DNA from: Streptomyces sp. WM4235
Lineage (GTDB): Bacteria; Actinomycetota; Actinomycetes; Streptomycetales; Streptomycetaceae
Length of the DNA stretch: 64,000 bases
Assembly (NCBI RefSeq): GCF_001279725.1
Contig: NZ_LGDE01000227.1
Location: forward strand, 6,588 to 70,587
Reading direction: 5' to 3'
Made by a program: the position numbers and the translations under genes. Positions 9,626-15,356 of the stretch are shown one piece after another (the first letter of the stretch is position 1; every line of letters starts with the position of its first letter). A model generated the notes under the pieces. The model ran no database searches and was not told where the DNA came from. It saw nothing but the letters and a program-made list of their open reading frames with translations.

Positions 9626-9660
9626 GGACTCGCTCGAGGGCCGTGATCGCGGGTCCCCTC

Positions 9661-9947
9661 GAACGGCGTCTCGTACTGGGTCGCTCACCTGGGGGTTCGC
9701 CAGACGTGGGGGCGGCCTTCGTCTAATCATGTGCTCCGACCAAGGTGACGCGTGACCACGACGAAGGCCGTGAGGTGAGTTTGCTGCCTGACCTGTCCGG
9801 AGGGAAGCGTCACGCTTACGGGGAGAGTTCTACGAGTGTCTGACCGCTCGGAGCGACGAGTTGTTCGAGCTTGTGGACGCGGTGCTGTGTGCGGACGGTG
9901 CGGTGCGGTCCCCGGTGGACCTGACCCTGTTGCCCGAGCACCGTCGT
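9661..9947 (+). pseudogene. Transposase remnant, 5' part of NF041680-type IS
   Basis: Nearly collinear with 13653-13953: the same CGAACGGCGTCTCGTACTGG start, the same GTGACC...ACGAAGGCCGTGAG translation start, and the same CGGTGGACCTGACCCTG stretch. It has small deletions, including one between repeated GAAGCG motifs that removes about 25 bp and breaks the frame. Similarity stops after GAGCACCGTCGT at 9947. A short CCGGAACAGA match near 10052-10061 may be the decayed right end of the same copy. The rest of 9948-10091 shows no gene. Confidence 0.8.
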
Positions 9948-10091: not shown

Positions 10092-10688
10092 TCACGGGCG
10101 ATCGTGGTTGGGAGCTGGGGCAGGTGGCGGGGGGCTCACTGCTGTGCACGCTTCATACAGGACGAGGTAGGCCCTGGCCTGTTGTTCGTAGGCGTAGCCC
10201 AGAGCGGCATCACCGGCCTGGAAAGCTATGACGGCCTGGCCATACAGGGTTGTCGCCTCGCGCAGATAGGGGACGCACGGATCGAGGCTTTCGTGCAGGG
10301 CAGGTGGAGGGGATGGCCGCGGCTGTTCGACAGCGAGTGCCCGGACCCTTTGCTCAAGGTCATGCAGGGGCCGCATAGTCGCTTCGGACTCGTTCCACGA
10401 GGTTGTAGCGTCCTGTTCTTTAGGACGAGGGACAGTGACGCACAGTAGCGCGAGCCGCCCGTAGCCGTCCCCTGTCGAGAGGTAGTAGTCGCCCAGTCCG
10501 TCGTCACCGCGCTGGTAGGCACTATCGGCAAATTCGTAGTGCGCGATCGCGGCTGACCAGTACGGTCGGCTATCCGTGGCAAGCCTGGGCAGGAACTGGA
10601 AGTGCGGCTGCCCGAGACGGTGGCACAGCGCGGCATCTCGCGTCACGAGTGCGGTCTTCTCACTGGATGTCTGGGTCCCCCATGCCAT
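10092..10688 (-). CDS. Hypothetical protein, last gene of PatG-like operon
   Basis: A 198-residue soluble protein from ATG 10688, preceded by AGGGGA. Two loosely similar helical segments are visible, one around YWSAAIAHYEFADSAYQRGDD and one around LYGQAVIAFQAGDAALGYAY. Both look like helical-hairpin (TPR-like) repeats with a DG/DA turn. The C-terminus is Pro-rich. No family recognised. GC is lower than the chromosomal norm. Its position 62 bp after the HExxH ORF, in the same direction, suggests it belongs to the protease/peptide operon, perhaps as a scaffold or immunity-type partner (speculative). Confidence 0.65.
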   Translation of the reverse strand: MAWGTQTSSEKTALVTRDAALCHRLGQPHFQFLPRLATDSRPYWSAAIAHYEFADSAYQRGDDGLGDYYLSTGDGYGRLALLCVTVPRPKEQDATTSWNESEATMRPLHDLEQRVRALAVEQPRPSPPPALHESLDPCVPYLREATTLYGQAVIAFQAGDAALGYAYEQQARAYLVLYEACTAVSPPPPAPAPNHDRP

Positions 10689-10750
10689 GGCTATCCCCTG
10701 TCGTTGCCTGTTCGGTCTGGTCGGTGTGGTGGAACCAGCGATCTGGCTTC

Positions 10751-10975
10751 TCAGCGAATGAAGTAGGGCGTGAGAGGAGCGGAGAGGAACTCCTCGGTCG
10801 CGTCAAGCAGGTGCGGCGAACTTTCTCCGCTGCGCTGGTAGCGCGGTCTGGCCTCCCCGCTCCCGCCCGCTCCGAAGACATGATCCACATAGCCATGCCC
10901 GACCTCATGGCCAGCGGCCTCACTGGCGAGGACACCATCTCCTGGCGCGACCCGACAACAGCTAGCTGATTCCAA
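10751..10975 (-). CDS. Mini HExxH metalloprotease-like ORF
   Basis: A 74-residue frame whose only possible early start is TTG 10975, with AAAGG 11 bases upstream. It carries SEAAGHEVGHGYVDHVFG, i.e. a zincin HExxH motif at residues 23-27 preceded by a small-residue helix. No obvious third ligand is present and the length is far below that of an active metalloprotease. It may be a decayed fragment or a metal-binding accessory protein. It lies in the same frame as the Cys-rich gene upstream, after that gene's TGA. Confidence 0.45.
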   Translation of the reverse strand: MESASCCRVAPGDGVLASEAAGHEVGHGYVDHVFGAGGSGEARPRYQRSGESSPHLLDATEEFLSAPLTPYFIR

Positions 10976-10990
10976 GAAGAAGACGACCTT

Positions 10991-11371
10991 TCAGGGCGTC
11001 TGCGGGCAGGCAAAGCAGCCGGCGTCATGCGTGGATGCCCAGCAACCACACTCACATGTCACGAATGCGTATCCGCCATCGACGGGTTGGTCCGCATGGC
11101 AGCTGTCGATGGCCATCGACACGCTGTCCGTCGCACGCAGAATCACGTTGTGTGCGCTCTCGCCCTCTGTCACGCTCGCACATGCGCCGTGCCCGTGGGA
11201 GCACAAGCACAGACCCGAGCAGTGGGTTCCGCAACAGGTGCCGGGGGCCTCCGTTCCGTTGTCCTGTTGCGGCATCACGCTGCTGTTGCTGATTGAGACA
11301 CGTAGCTGACTGCGGTACTGGTGGCGGCCTAGGTAAACCGATTTGCTGGCGGTAAATCCTGGGAAAGCCAT
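10991..11371 (-). CDS. Cys-rich peptide, candidate substrate/precursor of PatG-like protease
   Basis: A 126-residue protein starting at ATG 11371, 13 nt after the PatG-C-type gene, with AAAGGA as ribosome site. The N-terminus MAFPGFTASKSVY resembles a PGFTAEASLY-like N-terminal motif that I recall from short Cys-rich bacterial proteins of unknown function. The C-terminal two thirds has 12 Cys (46, 47, 51, 55, 57, 64, 91, 106, 108, 110, 119, 122) plus several His, in two clusters (TCCGTHCSGLCLC and TCECGCW...GCFAC). Size, position and leader/core-like bipartition suggest a modified or metal-binding peptide cleaved by the S8 protease. This is inference. Confidence 0.7.
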   Translation of the reverse strand: MAFPGFTASKSVYLGRHQYRSQLRVSISNSSVMPQQDNGTEAPGTCCGTHCSGLCLCSHGHGACASVTEGESAHNVILRATDSVSMAIDSCHADQPVDGGYAFVTCECGCWASTHDAGCFACPQTP

Positions 11372-11384
11372 CGCGCTCGTCCTT

Positions 11385-12425
11385 TCACTGGTCGCTGAAG
11401 CGGTCGTAGTAGCTCGACAGAGAGGTCACCAAGAAGGGGTGCTGGTCGGTCACGTCCACGGACACGGCGGCCTTTTCGGTGAAACCTGCGCGGCGGCTGG
11501 TGTAGGTAAAGATGCAGTCCACGACGGTGCGAGCGCTGCCGAGCGGGGAAGGCCGGACGCTCACGCCGCTGAGGGAGAAGTTCTCGGCGAATGCCTGCGC
11601 GGTCCGCGTGTATATCTCCGGATAGCGCATGGCAAGGTAGTTGAGGGCCCGGTGCTCGTCCGTGGCTCCGGCGTTGTCGGTGGCTTGGAGGATCGCGTCC
11701 AGAACCTGCGCCGAGGCTGACACGAACTGCCCGTCCGGCACGCTGTCAGGGTCAGACTTCGGGATCGAGCTGAGAAACGACTCCCGGTCGAAGGAGTAAA
11801 TCTGCTCGACCGCCACGAGTGGCACCATGAGGCCGTTGCATTGTTCCGGCGCGGCCACTGGACCTCGTCGGCCGATCACCACGTCGAGGTCCGTGGGGCC
11901 TGGATCTGGTCGAATCGTCTGCACCAGCAGCTCCAGGTCAGCGGGGTCGCGAGGGAGCAGGATGTAGGTCTCAATGTCACGGACCAGCAGCACCCAGCAC
12001 ATCATCCGGGCGAGATAGCGGTGTTCGGACAGCACCGACTGCAGGAGTTGGGCATCCGTCTGCCCCGCGCTGTAGGAGCGCCCCGCTACCTGGGCGAACT
12101 CCTTCTCAACTGAAAGACGCGGAAATCGGGCCTCGATCCTACCAATCGTGTACACAAACCGATTAGGGACCAGGCTCTCGTCCAGTCGTGTGTGCTCGTC
12201 GGCTCGCGCCGTGGCCGCGGAAGCAGTGCACGACGGGCAGACATCGCTCGCCATGGAGAGTCCTACGGATGACCCCGCCAGGTCCGGTTGGGAAGGTGAA
12301 GGGGGCTGAACTGCGCCAGGCCGAAAGTTTGCTTCTTGTGTGGCTTGCTGTGCGAGCGTCTGGGCTGGCATCGCCAGATCACCTGTCGATTCGGATTCCG
12401 GTTGCGCATTGAGGTCGTGTGCCAT
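11385..12425 (-). CDS. Stand-alone PatG C-terminal-type protein (cyanobactin maturation family)
   Basis: A 346-residue protein from ATG 12425, five bases after a consensus AGGAGG. The N-terminal about 80 residues are Gln/Pro/Ser-rich with a CPSC at 63-66. From residue 86 it follows what I recall of the PatG C-terminal domains: VYTIGRIEARFP, SVEKEFAQ, CWVLLVRDIETYILLPRDPADLE, DVVIGRRGPVA, CNGLMVPLV, DNAGATDEHRALNYLAMRYP and FLVTSLSSYYDR. In cyanobactin PatG this region is fused C-terminal to the S8 macrocyclase; its role is unknown. Here it is a separate gene two positions downstream of the protease, directly before the Cys-rich peptide. Confidence 0.85.
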   Translation of the reverse strand: MAHDLNAQPESESTGDLAMPAQTLAQQATQEANFRPGAVQPPSPSQPDLAGSSVGLSMASDVCPSCTASAATARADEHTRLDESLVPNRFVYTIGRIEARFPRLSVEKEFAQVAGRSYSAGQTDAQLLQSVLSEHRYLARMMCWVLLVRDIETYILLPRDPADLELLVQTIRPDPGPTDLDVVIGRRGPVAAPEQCNGLMVPLVAVEQIYSFDRESFLSSIPKSDPDSVPDGQFVSASAQVLDAILQATDNAGATDEHRALNYLAMRYPEIYTRTAQAFAENFSLSGVSVRPSPLGSARTVVDCIFTYTSRRAGFTEKAAVSVDVTDQHPFLVTSLSSYYDRFSDQ

Positions 12426-12467
12426 CCGGTCCTCCTTCTCAGTGCACATGGCTGAGCAGCTCTCGGT

Positions 12468-12668
12468 TCACTGGCGGTCGCGGGGTGAGAGCACAACCCA
12501 ACGGTCGAGAGCCGTTGCACGCCGTTCGCATCCGCCGCACGGCCGTATGCCAGTCCGAGCGGTCACATATTTGATCGCTTGGCCGAGTCCGATGTCATCA
12601 TCGTGGACGAACCCAGGCATCCGAACCCGGAAAGGCTTGCGAACCGGGTGCTCTTGCTTCTCAGACAT
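12468..12668 (-). CDS. CxxC microprotein of the PatG-like operon
   Basis: A 66-residue protein from ATG 12668 with GGAGG five bases upstream, overlapping the protease 3' end by 8 bp. It ends in a compact motif: GLGQAIKYVTARTGIRPCGGCERRATALDRW. It thus has an amphipathic helix, a CxxC at 44-47 and a basic/aromatic helix. Similar IKPCGGCxRR(x)nLN tails occur in short phage and bacterial proteins of unknown role. A zinc- or thiol-handling function, or a second peptide substrate, is possible. Coupling to the protease argues for a shared pathway. Confidence 0.75.
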   Translation of the reverse strand: MSEKQEHPVRKPFRVRMPGFVHDDDIGLGQAIKYVTARTGIRPCGGCERRATALDRWVVLSPRDRQ

Positions 12669-13527
12669 GGCACCTCCTGCGGCTCATTGCCTGGAATGCC
12701 GCTGCTGCGTTCAGCAGCGGCGGTACGACAGTCCTGTGTTGCCTCGAGGCGGTCACAGCCAGCCGGACTTCGGTTGGTGAAGCATCTGGGAAAAGCGACC
12801 AGAGCAGCGCGATCGCTCCGGTGACGAACGGAGCCGCAACGCTCGTCCCGCTCTGCATCACCAGCCCGCCCTCCGGCCCGAGGCTTCTGACCCTGTCACC
12901 GGGAGCGCCAAGCCCGCGGTGGCCGATCGAACGGCCCAGGTTAGACCGTCCCATCGGTTGGCCTGCCTGGTTGTATGAGGTCACTGGAATGACCCAGGGG
13001 TGGCCAGTCAGCGCCGTGCTCGTGATGGCTCGGTCGTTTCCGGCAGCGACAACGATGATCACCCCACGCTGGGCGGCAAAGTCCAGAGCGTCGATAAGTT
13101 GTCGTTCATGGTCAGGAAGGGGCTGGTAGAGAGCGGCGCTGATGTTGATGATCCGCGCCCCAACATCTGCGCAAGCCAAGATGCCCGCGGCGAGATGTTT
13201 CGGTGTGGTGGCGGGTGTACGGTCGTTGACCGCATGGTCGGTGAAGACAGTATGGACGTACAAAGTGCAATCGGGGCAGAGCGCCGGCGCTGTGCTGTCC
13301 CGCCGGGCCGCCAGTATTCCGGCGACGAATGTGCCGTGCGCGCATGCGAGACGTCCGGGTCGCGCGCAGGCCGCCGTATGAGCGCCTGACGTGTCTTTGA
13401 TCCGCGTGCTGCGCAGCCCAGGGTGCCCAGTCATGACTGGGCCGTCGATCATTGCAATGGAGAGGTCAGGATTACCTGCCGTCCGACGGGCCAATTCTGC
13501 GAGGCCGACCAAAACAAGCGGCTCCAT
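12661..13527 (-). CDS. PatA/PatG-like S8 (subtilisin-family) protease
   Basis: A 288-residue cytoplasmic-looking subtilase without signal or propeptide. The catalytic triad is intact: Asp28 (IAMIDGPV), His64 (CAHGTFVAGIL) and Ser229 (SGTSVAAP), with oxyanion Asn164 (AAGND). The opening GLAELARRTAGNPDLSIAMIDGPV and the late GAPGDRV...MQSGTS pattern follow cyanobactin PatA/PatG proteases, which cleave or macrocyclise peptide substrates. ATG 13527 follows AAAGGAG. First gene of a leftward, partly overlapping operon with the CxxC microprotein, PatG-C-type protein and Cys-rich peptide. Confidence 0.88.
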   Translation of the reverse strand: MEPLVLVGLAELARRTAGNPDLSIAMIDGPVMTGHPGLRSTRIKDTSGAHTAACARPGRLACAHGTFVAGILAARRDSTAPALCPDCTLYVHTVFTDHAVNDRTPATTPKHLAAGILACADVGARIINISAALYQPLPDHERQLIDALDFAAQRGVIIVVAAGNDRAITSTALTGHPWVIPVTSYNQAGQPMGRSNLGRSIGHRGLGAPGDRVRSLGPEGGLVMQSGTSVAAPFVTGAIALLWSLFPDASPTEVRLAVTASRQHRTVVPPLLNAAAAFQAMSRRRCHV

Positions 13528-13566: not shown

Positions 13567-13652
13567 CAGGTTCGCATCTCGCCCACGTGATCACAATTTC
13601 GGGACGCTCCAGGGTCGGCGGAGTCTCAACTTGTGCTTTTTCTATCGGTCTC

Positions 13653-15249
13653 GAACGGCGTCTCGTACTGGGTCGCTCACCTGACGGTTCGCCGGACGTG
13701 GGGGCGGCCTTCGTCTGATCATGTGCTCCGACCAAGGTGCACGTGACCGAGACGAAGGCCGTGAGGGTGAGTCTGCTGCCTGATGCTGTCCGGAGGGAAG
13801 CGTTCGCGGAAGCGTCACGCTTCCGGGCTGAGTTCCATGAGTGTCTGACCGCCCGGCGTGACGAGTTGTTCGAGCTGACGGACGCGCTGCTGTGTGTCGA
13901 TGGGCCGGTCCTCTCGCCGGTGGACCTGACGCTGGTGCCCGAGCACCGTCGTGGGCACGGAGCGTTGTACGGAGCCCTCAACCACGGCCGGATCGACGTC
14001 GACAGGCTGCGATCCTTGCTGGCCGACATGGCCTTGCCGCGCTTCGATGGCGGCCGTCTGGTGCTGGCGGTCGATGTGTCGCCGTGGCTGCGGTCTGACG
14101 CACCCTGCTCGGCCGAGCGGCTGTTCTGCCACGTCTACGGGCGGGCGAAGTCCGCGTCGCAGTTCATCCCGGGCTGGCCCTACTCCTTCGTCGCCGTCCT
14201 GGAGCCCGGCGCCACGTCGTGGACAGCGATCCTGGACGTGGTCCACCTCGGGCCCGAGGACGACGCGACCGCGGTCACCGCCGCCCAGCTGCGGGCCGTG
14301 GCCGAACGCCTCATCGCGGCCGGCCAGTGGACGCCCGGAGACCCGGACATCACGATCGTCATGGACGCCGGCTACGACGTCACCCGTCTGGCCTGGGTAC
14401 TGCGGGATCTCCCCGTCGAGCTGATCGGGCGGATCCGCAGCGACCGGGTGATGCGCCTGCCGAAACCACCGAGGACGCACGGCATCAACGGCCGGCCACC
14501 CAAGCACGGCCCGGAATTCCGCTTCGCCAAGCCCGAGACCTGGCCCGAACCGGCGATCACCACGGCCACCGACACGGTGAACTACGGAAAGGCCGAAGCC
14601 CAGGCATGGGACCGGGTCCACCCGAGACTGACCCACCGCTCGGCCTGCCTGGAGCACGACGGCGAACTCCCCATCGTCAAAGGCACCCTGATCCGGCTGA
14701 AAGTCGAGCACCTCTCGAAGGAACGAGAGGCCCCGCCGGTATGGCTATGGTCCTCCACAACCGGCGTCGCCCCGGCGGACGTGAACCTGTGCTGGCAGGT
14801 GTTCCTCAGGAGATTCGACCTGGAGCACACCTTCAGGTTCAGCAAGCAGATGCTCGGCTGGAACACCCCGAAGGTCCGTACTCCCGAGGCAGCGGACCGT
14901 TGGACCTGGCTCCTGGTCGTCGCCCACACTCAACTCCGCCTCGCCCGGGACGCTGGCCACCGATCTCCGTCGGCCCTGGGAGAAGCCAGCCAAGCCCGAA
15001 CGCCTCACACCAGCCCGGGTCCGCCGCGGGTTCAGGAACATCCGCGCTCACCTGCTCTGCCCGGCCCGTGTTCCTCAACCGACCGGAACCGGGCCCGGGC
15101 GGCCCCTCGGCTCGAAGAACCGGCACCCGGCCACCCGCTACGACGTCGGCAAAACGGTCAAACGCCCCGAGAACCTCAAAGCCATCGGCAAGCCCGGAAG
15201 ATCTTGGTAGATGAAAAACAAGCTAAGCAGTCCGGAACAGAAACGGTTC
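13653..15249 (+). mobile_element. Insertion sequence with NF041680-type transposase
   Basis: Ends were chosen from imperfect inverted repeats. The left reads GAACGGCGTCTCGTACTG (13653-13670). The right, read on the minus strand from 15249, is GAACCGTTTCTGTTCCGG. They match at 11 of 18 positions. The internal gene (13743-15210) is a frameshifted transposase. CCCTC follows the right end. A truncated second copy starts at 9661. Confidence 0.6.
13743..15210 (+). pseudogene. NF041680-family putative transposase, frameshifted near 14945-14955
   Basis: Starts at GTG 13743 (VTETKAVRVSLL). Family landmarks in order: AFAEASRFRAEF, VDLTLVPEHRRGHGALY, LVLAVDVSPWLR, HVYGRAKSASQFIPGWPYSF, DITIVMDAGYD and RRFDLEHTFRFSKQMLGW, then WTWLLVVAHTQLRLAR. 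After this the open frame becomes nonsense. Shifting by one base around CGCCCGGGACGCTGG restores the expected ending (LATDLRRPWEKPAKPERLTPAR, ...GPGRPLGSKNRHPATRYD) to TAG 15208-15210. So about the last 85 family residues are out of frame. This is a genuine inactivating indel or a sequencing error. Confidence 0.85.
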
Positions 15250-15356
15250 CCCTCCCCGAGTGGGATGGAGGGTGACGTTCCGCTTCCCTCCATCCCGATG
15301 ACCGCGGCAGCGGCCCCCGGCGGAAACCCGCCGTCACTCGGGCCGGGACCGGCGCG

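Follow-up and report, generated by a model that had tools for sequence, protein, structure and literature searches.

What does a cyanobactin-type protease do when its C-terminal domain is encoded by a gene of its own and the nearest candidate substrate is rich in cysteine (Cys)? The question is raised by a leftward operon of Streptomyces sp. WM4235, which lies in a 64,000-nucleotide (nt) stretch of contig NZ_LGDE01000227.1 (hereinafter the window). An earlier reading, made from the letters alone (hereinafter the sequence-only reading), had described it as a split PatG-type processing operon of six genes: an intact S8 protease, a CxxC microprotein, a stand-alone protein with the PatG C-terminal domains (hereinafter PatG_D/C), a Cys-rich open reading frame (ORF) of 126 amino acids (aa), an HExxH mini-ORF and a helical protein. 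We find that the first four of these recur as a cassette in bacteria and archaea, that the catalytic residues of the protease are intact, that the Cys-rich ORF belongs to a family with a shared leader and a hypervariable core, and that the number of Cys in these cores is almost always even, counted from where the leader ends. Hence, we consider it probable that this is a mobile peptide-maturation cassette, in which an S8 leader peptidase cuts a leader-bearing precursor after a VxPQ junction, the core Cys form disulfides, and PatG_D/C and the CxxC microprotein act as partners.

A PatA-like protease and a detached C-terminal domain

An ORF check of the window bore out the positions of all the operon ORFs on the minus strand (Table 1), including the 8-bp overlap between the S8 and CxxC genes and the start of the 126-aa ORF (11371) 13 nt past the end of the 346-aa PatG_D/C ORF. 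The S8, CxxC, PatG_D/C and 12-Cys ORFs are closely packed with plausible ribosome-binding sites, such as the AAGGAGG preceding the 346-aa ORF start at 12425; the helical ORF follows about 300 nt after this four-gene group.

Against solved structures, the S8 protease scores 94 bits with 4h6v and 3zxx, the PatA-type N-terminal proteases of cyanobactin pathways, as compared to 45 bits with PatG (4h6x and 4aks). Its Asp/His/Ser triad is present, as the sequence-only reading held, and is invariant in all 64 aligned S8 proteins. The PatG protease has an insertion; the Asp-His spacing is 36 residues in most of the 64 members, reaching 61 at most, with no consistent insertion. No sign of a PatG-type macrocyclase was thus found, the single S8 protease in the operon being PatA-like. 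Among NCBIfam models, the mycosin of type VII secretion (TIGR03921) scores highest with the protease, at 127.5 bits and thus under its cut-off of 278.75; no export signal was seen in the protease by eye.

The stand-alone nature of the PatG C-terminal domains was likewise upheld: a hidden Markov model search of the 346-aa protein recovered PatG_C (8.7e-36) and PatG_D (4.2e-26), both above the Pfam gathering scores (122.9 bits versus 25.9 and 92.1 versus 27). The cyanobactin model TIGR03895 gives 95 and 33 bits for the separate genes against a cut-off of 421. The predicted structure of PatG_D/C (mean predicted local distance difference test, pLDDT, 91) has as its sole fold match at E<=0.001 the domain of unknown function (DUF) of PatG, 4uvq (template modelling score 0.74; E 1e-8 by sequence), which comprises the same PF18047 and PF18065 domains; the folds are alike, but the window protein is a gene by itself. 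The wider family is large, with 5561 relatives at E<=1e-3 among the 7998 candidates scored. In an alignment of 71 members, motifs such as HRAxNY and DNxG are strongly conserved, and a C-x(0-2)-C stretch precedes the domain in 57. The PatG-DUF lacks certain features of the cassette proteins, e.g., the Cys of a ‘CNGL’ motif, which is kept in 70 of the 71, whereas PatG aligns there with ‘FSGE’. Given that the protease is nearest to PatA and PatG_D/C is predicted to share the fold of the PatG-DUF, we interpret the pair as a PatA split into two genes with the 66-aa CxxC gene between them. Thus, the split domain gene of the sequence-only reading stands, while its PatG-type label gives way to a PatA-type one.

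Recurrence and spread of the cassette

In GTDB representative genomes, 103 PatG_D/C relatives were confirmed by scanning, and the best 80 loci were kept; every locus has PatG_D/C by construction. Seven duplicate loci were removed for gene counts, leaving 73, and also before the parity test below; three near-identical loci were dropped from the neighbour-family survey, leaving 77; and ten (the seven duplicates and three close strains), along with short S8 pieces, were excluded from alignments and leader-core comparisons. S8 proteases lie within 5 kb of PatG_D/C in 69 of the 73 loci, spanning 11 phyla including archaea, and CxxC genes in 55, making both the operon partners that they had been taken for; S8-CxxC-PatG_D/C is the commonest order (46 loci). 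The Streptomyces setting of the sequence-only reading is therefore too narrow. Within Streptomyces, 17 of 295 genomes, the window's included, have PatG_D/C, and around the 16 other loci an S8 protease is seen in 14 and a CxxC gene in 12. A phylum-wide draw of actinobacteria contains few genomes with PatG_D/C (2 of 396, again counting the window's). Of the six genes claimed to belong together, the packed four thus recur; the helical protein does so rarely, with phmmer matches in two of the 16 Streptomyces loci, directly behind PatG_D/C, and the HExxH ORF in none of the loci compared.

Among ORFs of at least 60 aa within 6.5 kb of PatG_D/C, setting aside those judged by position to be shadows of cassette genes, no family other than the precursors described below occurs in more than six of the 77 loci, and no tailoring enzyme recurs beside the cassette.

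A tree of 71 PatG_D/C proteins mixes phyla, with 26 label changes as compared to a minimum of 10 and 44.7 in shuffles; its bootstrap is not settled, and phylum mixing does not by itself prove transfer. In one 19-row set (support 98/91), the window and S. panaciradicis are grouped with Pseudomonadota, Acidobacteriota and others, and the remaining actinobacterial rows lie outside it. Five plasmid records match PatG_D/C, with a query coverage of 80% or more in four; no phage record matched. In the window itself, an insertion sequence (IS; 13650-15275) and a remnant of the same IS end (9658-9947) bracket the operon in direct orientation, the direct repeats agreeing at 96% over 90 nt and 84% over 145 nt, which suggests IS-driven capture of the operon. 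Together, the mixed-phylum tree, plasmid records and IS bracketing fit a horizontal spread of the cassette.

A precursor family with a shared leader and hypervariable core

Between one and five small ORFs that start with the pattern [IL]PGF[T/S]A[E/D]xS[L][Y].....Y are found in 56 of the 80 loci, mostly downstream of PatG_D/C and in some loci upstream. Leaving aside ORFs that overlap cassette genes, motif-start ORFs within -3/+5 kb of PatG_D/C number 110 on the cassette (+) strand versus 9 on the opposite strand, as compared to 5 versus 3 far from it. They share a leader of about 35 aa, [IL]PGFTAExSLY...Y...[VIL]xPQ, followed by a hypervariable core. A junction of the form [VILAM]xP[QAM] is present in 80 of 110 precursors (shuffled mean 11.9, maximum 22), starting 27-31 residues past the motif Pro in 71 of the 80, and in these 80 the share of Cys is 0.5% before the junction and 11% after it. 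The two parts also differ in conservation: across 39 within-locus paralogue pairs, leader identity is 0.39 versus 0.18 when shuffled, while core identity (0.23) equals its shuffled value (0.23). With a ribosomal precursor, a conserved leader and a variable core, the family has the precursor architecture of a ribosomally synthesized and post-translationally modified peptide in the broad sense.

The 126-aa ORF of the window is a member of this family, having PGFTASKSVY, Y19 and VMPQ at residues 32-35 ahead of a 91-aa core with all 12 Cys, in keeping with its earlier designation as the putative substrate. Its relatives in Actinoallomurus (66% identity) and Spirillospora (51%) both have 12 core Cys as well. 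The 94 precursors scanned fall in no common Pfam or NCBIfam family, showing isolated weak matches only. Used as a profile against 2216 candidates, they recovered just 18 proteins at E<=1e-3, the brevity of the common stretch being the probable reason. As a genome marker, a short DNA pattern for ATG-2aa-PGFTA performed poorly and was rejected: it matched 28 of the 295 Streptomyces genomes, but in just four was the match at a PatG_D/C locus (coordinates read by eye), and its reversed control matched 13 genomes.

Some cargo departs from the small Cys-rich type. In a Zixiibacteriota locus (L104:8775-9371) the leader is followed by a phospholipase A2-like domain (PF00068, 2e-9), the part beyond the leader holding 18 Cys, and in Segetibacter (L101:10323-11606) it is fused to a pentapeptide-repeat protein with a single Cys. 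As the cargo is not always a small peptide, the leader may double as a sorting tag. Four very long precursors (L021:9193-10086, L028:768-1679, L043:10236-10928 and L100:5666-6352; 229-304 aa, 32-50 Cys) have CCxxGxxCC repeats that look granulin-like by eye, with no Pfam match. In three plasmid records (L119, L120 and L121) the precursor ORFs are missing from the PLSDB gene tables, which are incomplete, and may have been overlooked by annotation.

Even cysteine number of the cores

Cys parity was examined in 112 non-redundant precursors, chosen by the leader alone irrespective of Cys, after 9 of 121 were dropped as redundant. An even number of Cys is found in 106 of the 107 cores with at least two Cys; the commonest numbers are 6 (37 cores), 4 and 8 (22 each) and 10 (9), and two of the 112 cores lack Cys. 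In control minus-strand ORFs, 1118 of 1869 with at least two Cys (60%) and 515 of 806 with at least four are even, the 60% being as expected from falling count distributions. This control replaced a first one (any-frame ORFs with at least four Cys, 730 of 1151 even), into which cassette ORFs had entered. For most other residues of these cores the count is even in 45-67% of cases; His (29/36, 81%) and Met (19/22, 86%) are also even-biased, at small numbers.

Parity also locates the start of the core. Counted over whole precursors, Cys is even in 98 of 109, and for 10 of the 11 odd ones the surplus Cys sits in the leader. With a fixed number of N-terminal residues removed, evenness goes from 90% (uncut) to 98-99% at 20-32 residues and 95-99% across 16-34, and then drops from 95% at 34, where VxPQ ends, to 82% at 36 and 63% at 45. 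By this count, the core begins no later than the VxPQ junction and at most slightly ahead of it. Further precursors behave alike: all 18 database relatives are even (7 overlap the first set), as are all four leader-plus-Cys ORFs on plasmids (Sinorhizobium, Mesorhizobium and Streptomyces records), two further leader-pattern matches out of six having been set aside for want of core Cys (one inside an S8 gene, one on the minus strand). The even core number and a boundary at the junction together point to leader removal and paired Cys. On the simplest reading of the parity, the leader would be cleaved off and every core Cys would take part in a disulfide. The sequence-only reading, which had singled out the Cys-rich ORF, overlooked both its leader and the evenness of core Cys.

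The CxxC microprotein

The CxxC microprotein is conserved across phyla and keeps both Cys in 53 of 53 sequences. Its AlphaFold model (pLDDT 84) places the CxxC at the start of a helix, a trait of thioredoxin-like proteins, and its LPGF[VIL]x[DE] stretch resembles by eye the [IL]PGFTA[ED] of the leader. A CxxC profile matched 15 of the 295 Streptomyces genomes, and the 14 strong matches all fall within the 17 genomes with PatG_D/C (Fisher p 2e-21; a partial CxxC match of 31 bits in genome G146 was scored as a miss and a weak PatG_D/C match in genome G045 as a positive). In the actinobacterial draw 4 of the 396 genomes matched. Two loci (L032 6333-8164 and L033 6346-8213) represent a divergent subtype in which no CxxC gene is detectable; there are three precursors and an additional protein of at least about 290 aa.

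A proposed maturation pathway and its alternatives

We propose that the precursor leader of the window combines a recognition motif, PGFTASKSVY...Y, with the junction motif VMPQ. The S8 protease would act as a PatA-type leader peptidase in the form of a separate protein, cutting after VxPQ to release the core, a role favored by its intact triad, its kinship to PatA and the precedent of ElxP (see below), and the 12 core Cys of the window peptide would pair into disulfides. PatG_D/C and the CxxC microprotein most likely keep hold of the leader and assist in presenting the core or in folding it oxidatively; we infer such a leader-holding, thiol-active pair from the LPGF likeness and the CxxC at the helix start. 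The diversity of the cores fits a role in antagonism or signaling. A more far-reaching version, which we put forward tentatively and regard as somewhat doubtful in its entirety, is that of a new ribosomal natural-product class of bacteria and archaea making libraries of disulfide-rich miniproteins, the prokaryotic equivalent of conotoxins or defensins, wherein the PatG DUF and its dedicated CxxC microprotein, whose LPGF motif would imitate that of the leader, hold the leader and oxidatively fold the core, followed by cleavage after VxPQ by the split S8 protease.

Several observations weigh against such a pathway. The cytosol is normally unfavorable to disulfides, and neither an export signal nor a linked transporter was seen at the loci. 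The components are not universal: 4 of the 73 loci lack S8, including one from Methanothrix (L086) despite ample flanks; 18 have no detectable CxxC gene; and 27 of 90 loci (strict filter, redundancy removed) yielded no precursor, nor did the plasmid record L122, where just a 19-residue chance match was found. The strict [VIL]xPQ is present in only 54 of the 110 precursors. One core is odd (9 Cys) and three have a single Cys, giving 108 even of 112 overall. The model of the CxxC microprotein has no usable fold match, and two of its four actinobacterial matches are weak and partial (30 and 24 bits) in genomes without PatG_D/C. Finally, the PatG DUF of cyanobactins showed no binding to its linear precursor (PMC4259220), an argument against PatG_D/C simply binding the leader by itself; leader binding by PatG_D/C may therefore require the CxxC partner.

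The alternative that survives best, though we hold it to be unlikely, takes the leader to be mainly a tag by which diverse effectors are targeted or secreted, with S8 and PatG_D/C serving in export or release rather than in the chemistry of a ribosomal peptide. The occurrence of the same leader on the phospholipase A2-like core and the pentapeptide-repeat protein speaks for it, and the mycosin as top match of the protease, albeit under its cut-off, points the same way; however, small Cys peptides make up the majority of the cores, and transporter or secretion families are not widespread among the neighbors of the cassette. A distinctly smaller chance attaches to the cores being cytosolic metal binders of the metallothionein or Zn/Fe-S type and the cassette a metal buffer. 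Cys-rich cores that show neither export signal nor linked transporter would suit it, and the CxxC protein could donate metal; yet four-Cys sites would favor multiples of four over the observed mode of six, and hypervariable cores, let alone a phospholipase A2-like one, are unsuited to a buffer. It is very improbable that S8 and PatG_D/C form a defense or toxin module activated by infection: the protease does match the PADLOC subtilase and IetS models and the cassette is IS-flanked and sometimes on plasmids, but those matches look generic, the CxxC, PatG_D/C, precursor and helical proteins have no PADLOC match, and no phage record matches PatG_D/C. Least credible of all is a cyanobactin-like pathway in which Cys become azol(in)e heterocycles and the S8 protease macrocyclizes the product, for despite the PatG_D and PatG_C domains and a protease of the PatA/PatG kind, the PatE-type precursor, the macrocyclase (the protease being PatA- rather than PatG-like, with no consistent Asp-His insertion) and a YcaO on the contig are all missing, and heterocyclization does not explain the even Cys of 106 cores out of 107.

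YcaO heterocyclases are missing from some cyanobactin pathways. The earlier statement that no heterocyclase is present holds for the window's contig, which has no YcaO (PatD-type) gene; the three of the genome are on other contigs. No prenyltransferase was found in Pfam scans of the operon ORFs, the flanking transposase and nine more neighbors, no prenyltransferase-specific model being among those run.

Relation to known systems

The maturation cassette proposed here resembles PatA in having the same S8 subfamily and C-terminal domain, and PatA cuts the leader from a ribosomal precursor, as is proposed for the cassette protease. The S8 protease and DUF domain of cyanobactin pathways are thus both found, albeit as two genes with the CxxC gene between them and neither PatD nor PatG nearby. 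In place of a PatE-type leader and the G(L/V)E(A/P)S motif, given as a PatA-type cleavage site in PMC10885120, there is the [IL]PGFTAE...VxPQ leader and an even-Cys core.

Lanthipeptide pathways, which use LanB/LanC enzymes, offer the ElxP protease as a second parallel; we know of no PatG_D/C or CxxC partner of ElxP. As described in PMC10885120, ElxP, which acts on epilancin 15x, is a cytoplasmic S8 leader peptidase that recognizes (D/E-5)(L/V-4)XX(Q-1). The [VIL]xPQ junction matches this site at -4 and -1, although the ElxP site additionally has D/E at -5. In PMC13174530, an S8/S53 domain is described as the follower peptidase of another pathway.

Conotoxins and defensins are animal and plant libraries with a conserved prepro region, a hypervariable core, paired Cys and a Sec signal peptide. 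The cassette shares with them the combination of a conserved leader and a hypervariable core, whose Cys are predicted to pair; in contrast, they are eukaryotic and depend on unrelated proteases, whereas the cassette is bacterial and archaeal and its leader is not Sec-like by eye.

The claim that no described pathway matches the gene set agrees with the open literature searched, subscription papers and most preprints lying outside its scope, in which we found no description of it; the accessible part of PMC7794033, too, has nothing on these genes, and the 2014 structure paper on the PatG DUF (PMC4259220) left the function of the domain open. Hence, the cassette is apparently undescribed. What is new here is the placing of the 12-Cys ORF in a precursor family with a shared leader and the even number of core Cys; the precursors match no curated family scanned, though the cassette spans 11 phyla including archaea. 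Its products would form a large additional class of disulfide-rich peptides, offering stable scaffolds and candidate antimicrobials, and the cyanobactin DUF would gain a tractable setting in which it stands alone, next to a small partner specific to it and a leader that is defined.

Features of the window and minor observations

Table 1. Operon and flanking features in the window (positions count from its first letter).
Feature	Position	Strand	Remarks
S8 (subtilisin-like) protease, 288 aa	12661..13527	-	ATG at 13527; Peptidase_S8 1.8e-27
CxxC microprotein, 66 aa	12468..12668	-	RVRMPGF...IGLGQAI...GIRPCGGC; 8-bp overlap with S8 gene
Stand-alone PatG_D/PatG_C protein, 346 aa (354-aa ORF)	11385..12425	-	PF18047 and PF18065
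PatG_D domain	11913..12158	-	PF18047; residues 98-179 of 354-aa ORF
PatG_C domain	11409..11738	-	PF18065; residues 238-347 of 354-aa ORF
Precursor gene, 126 aa	10991..11371	-	12 Cys, all in core; shared leader motif
Predicted leader, residues 1-35	11267..11371	-	MAFPGFTASKSVYLGRHQY...SVMPQ; 0 Cys; from motif, cleavage predicted after VMPQ
Predicted core (mature peptide), 91 aa	10994..11266	-	12 Cys, an even number
Accessory helical protein, 198 aa	10092..10688	-	recurs rarely; weak DUF1771 match under cut-off
HExxH mini-ORF, judged not a gene	10751..10975	-	TTG start; no homologue in loci compared
IS transposase flanking operon	13737..15275	+	DDE_5 / NF041680
Remnant of same IS end, opposite side of operon	9658..9947		direct repeats

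The HExxH ORF was rejected as a gene on account of its TTG start and a tblastn search of the collected loci that matched the window's own locus only. Among the other Streptomyces loci, one copy of PatG_D/C (L031 8127-8906, genome G224) is in two overlapping frames and may be broken or contain a sequencing error, and two related loci (L019 4149-5756 and L020 12046-13659) have a gene near the cassette that looks caspase-like by eye.

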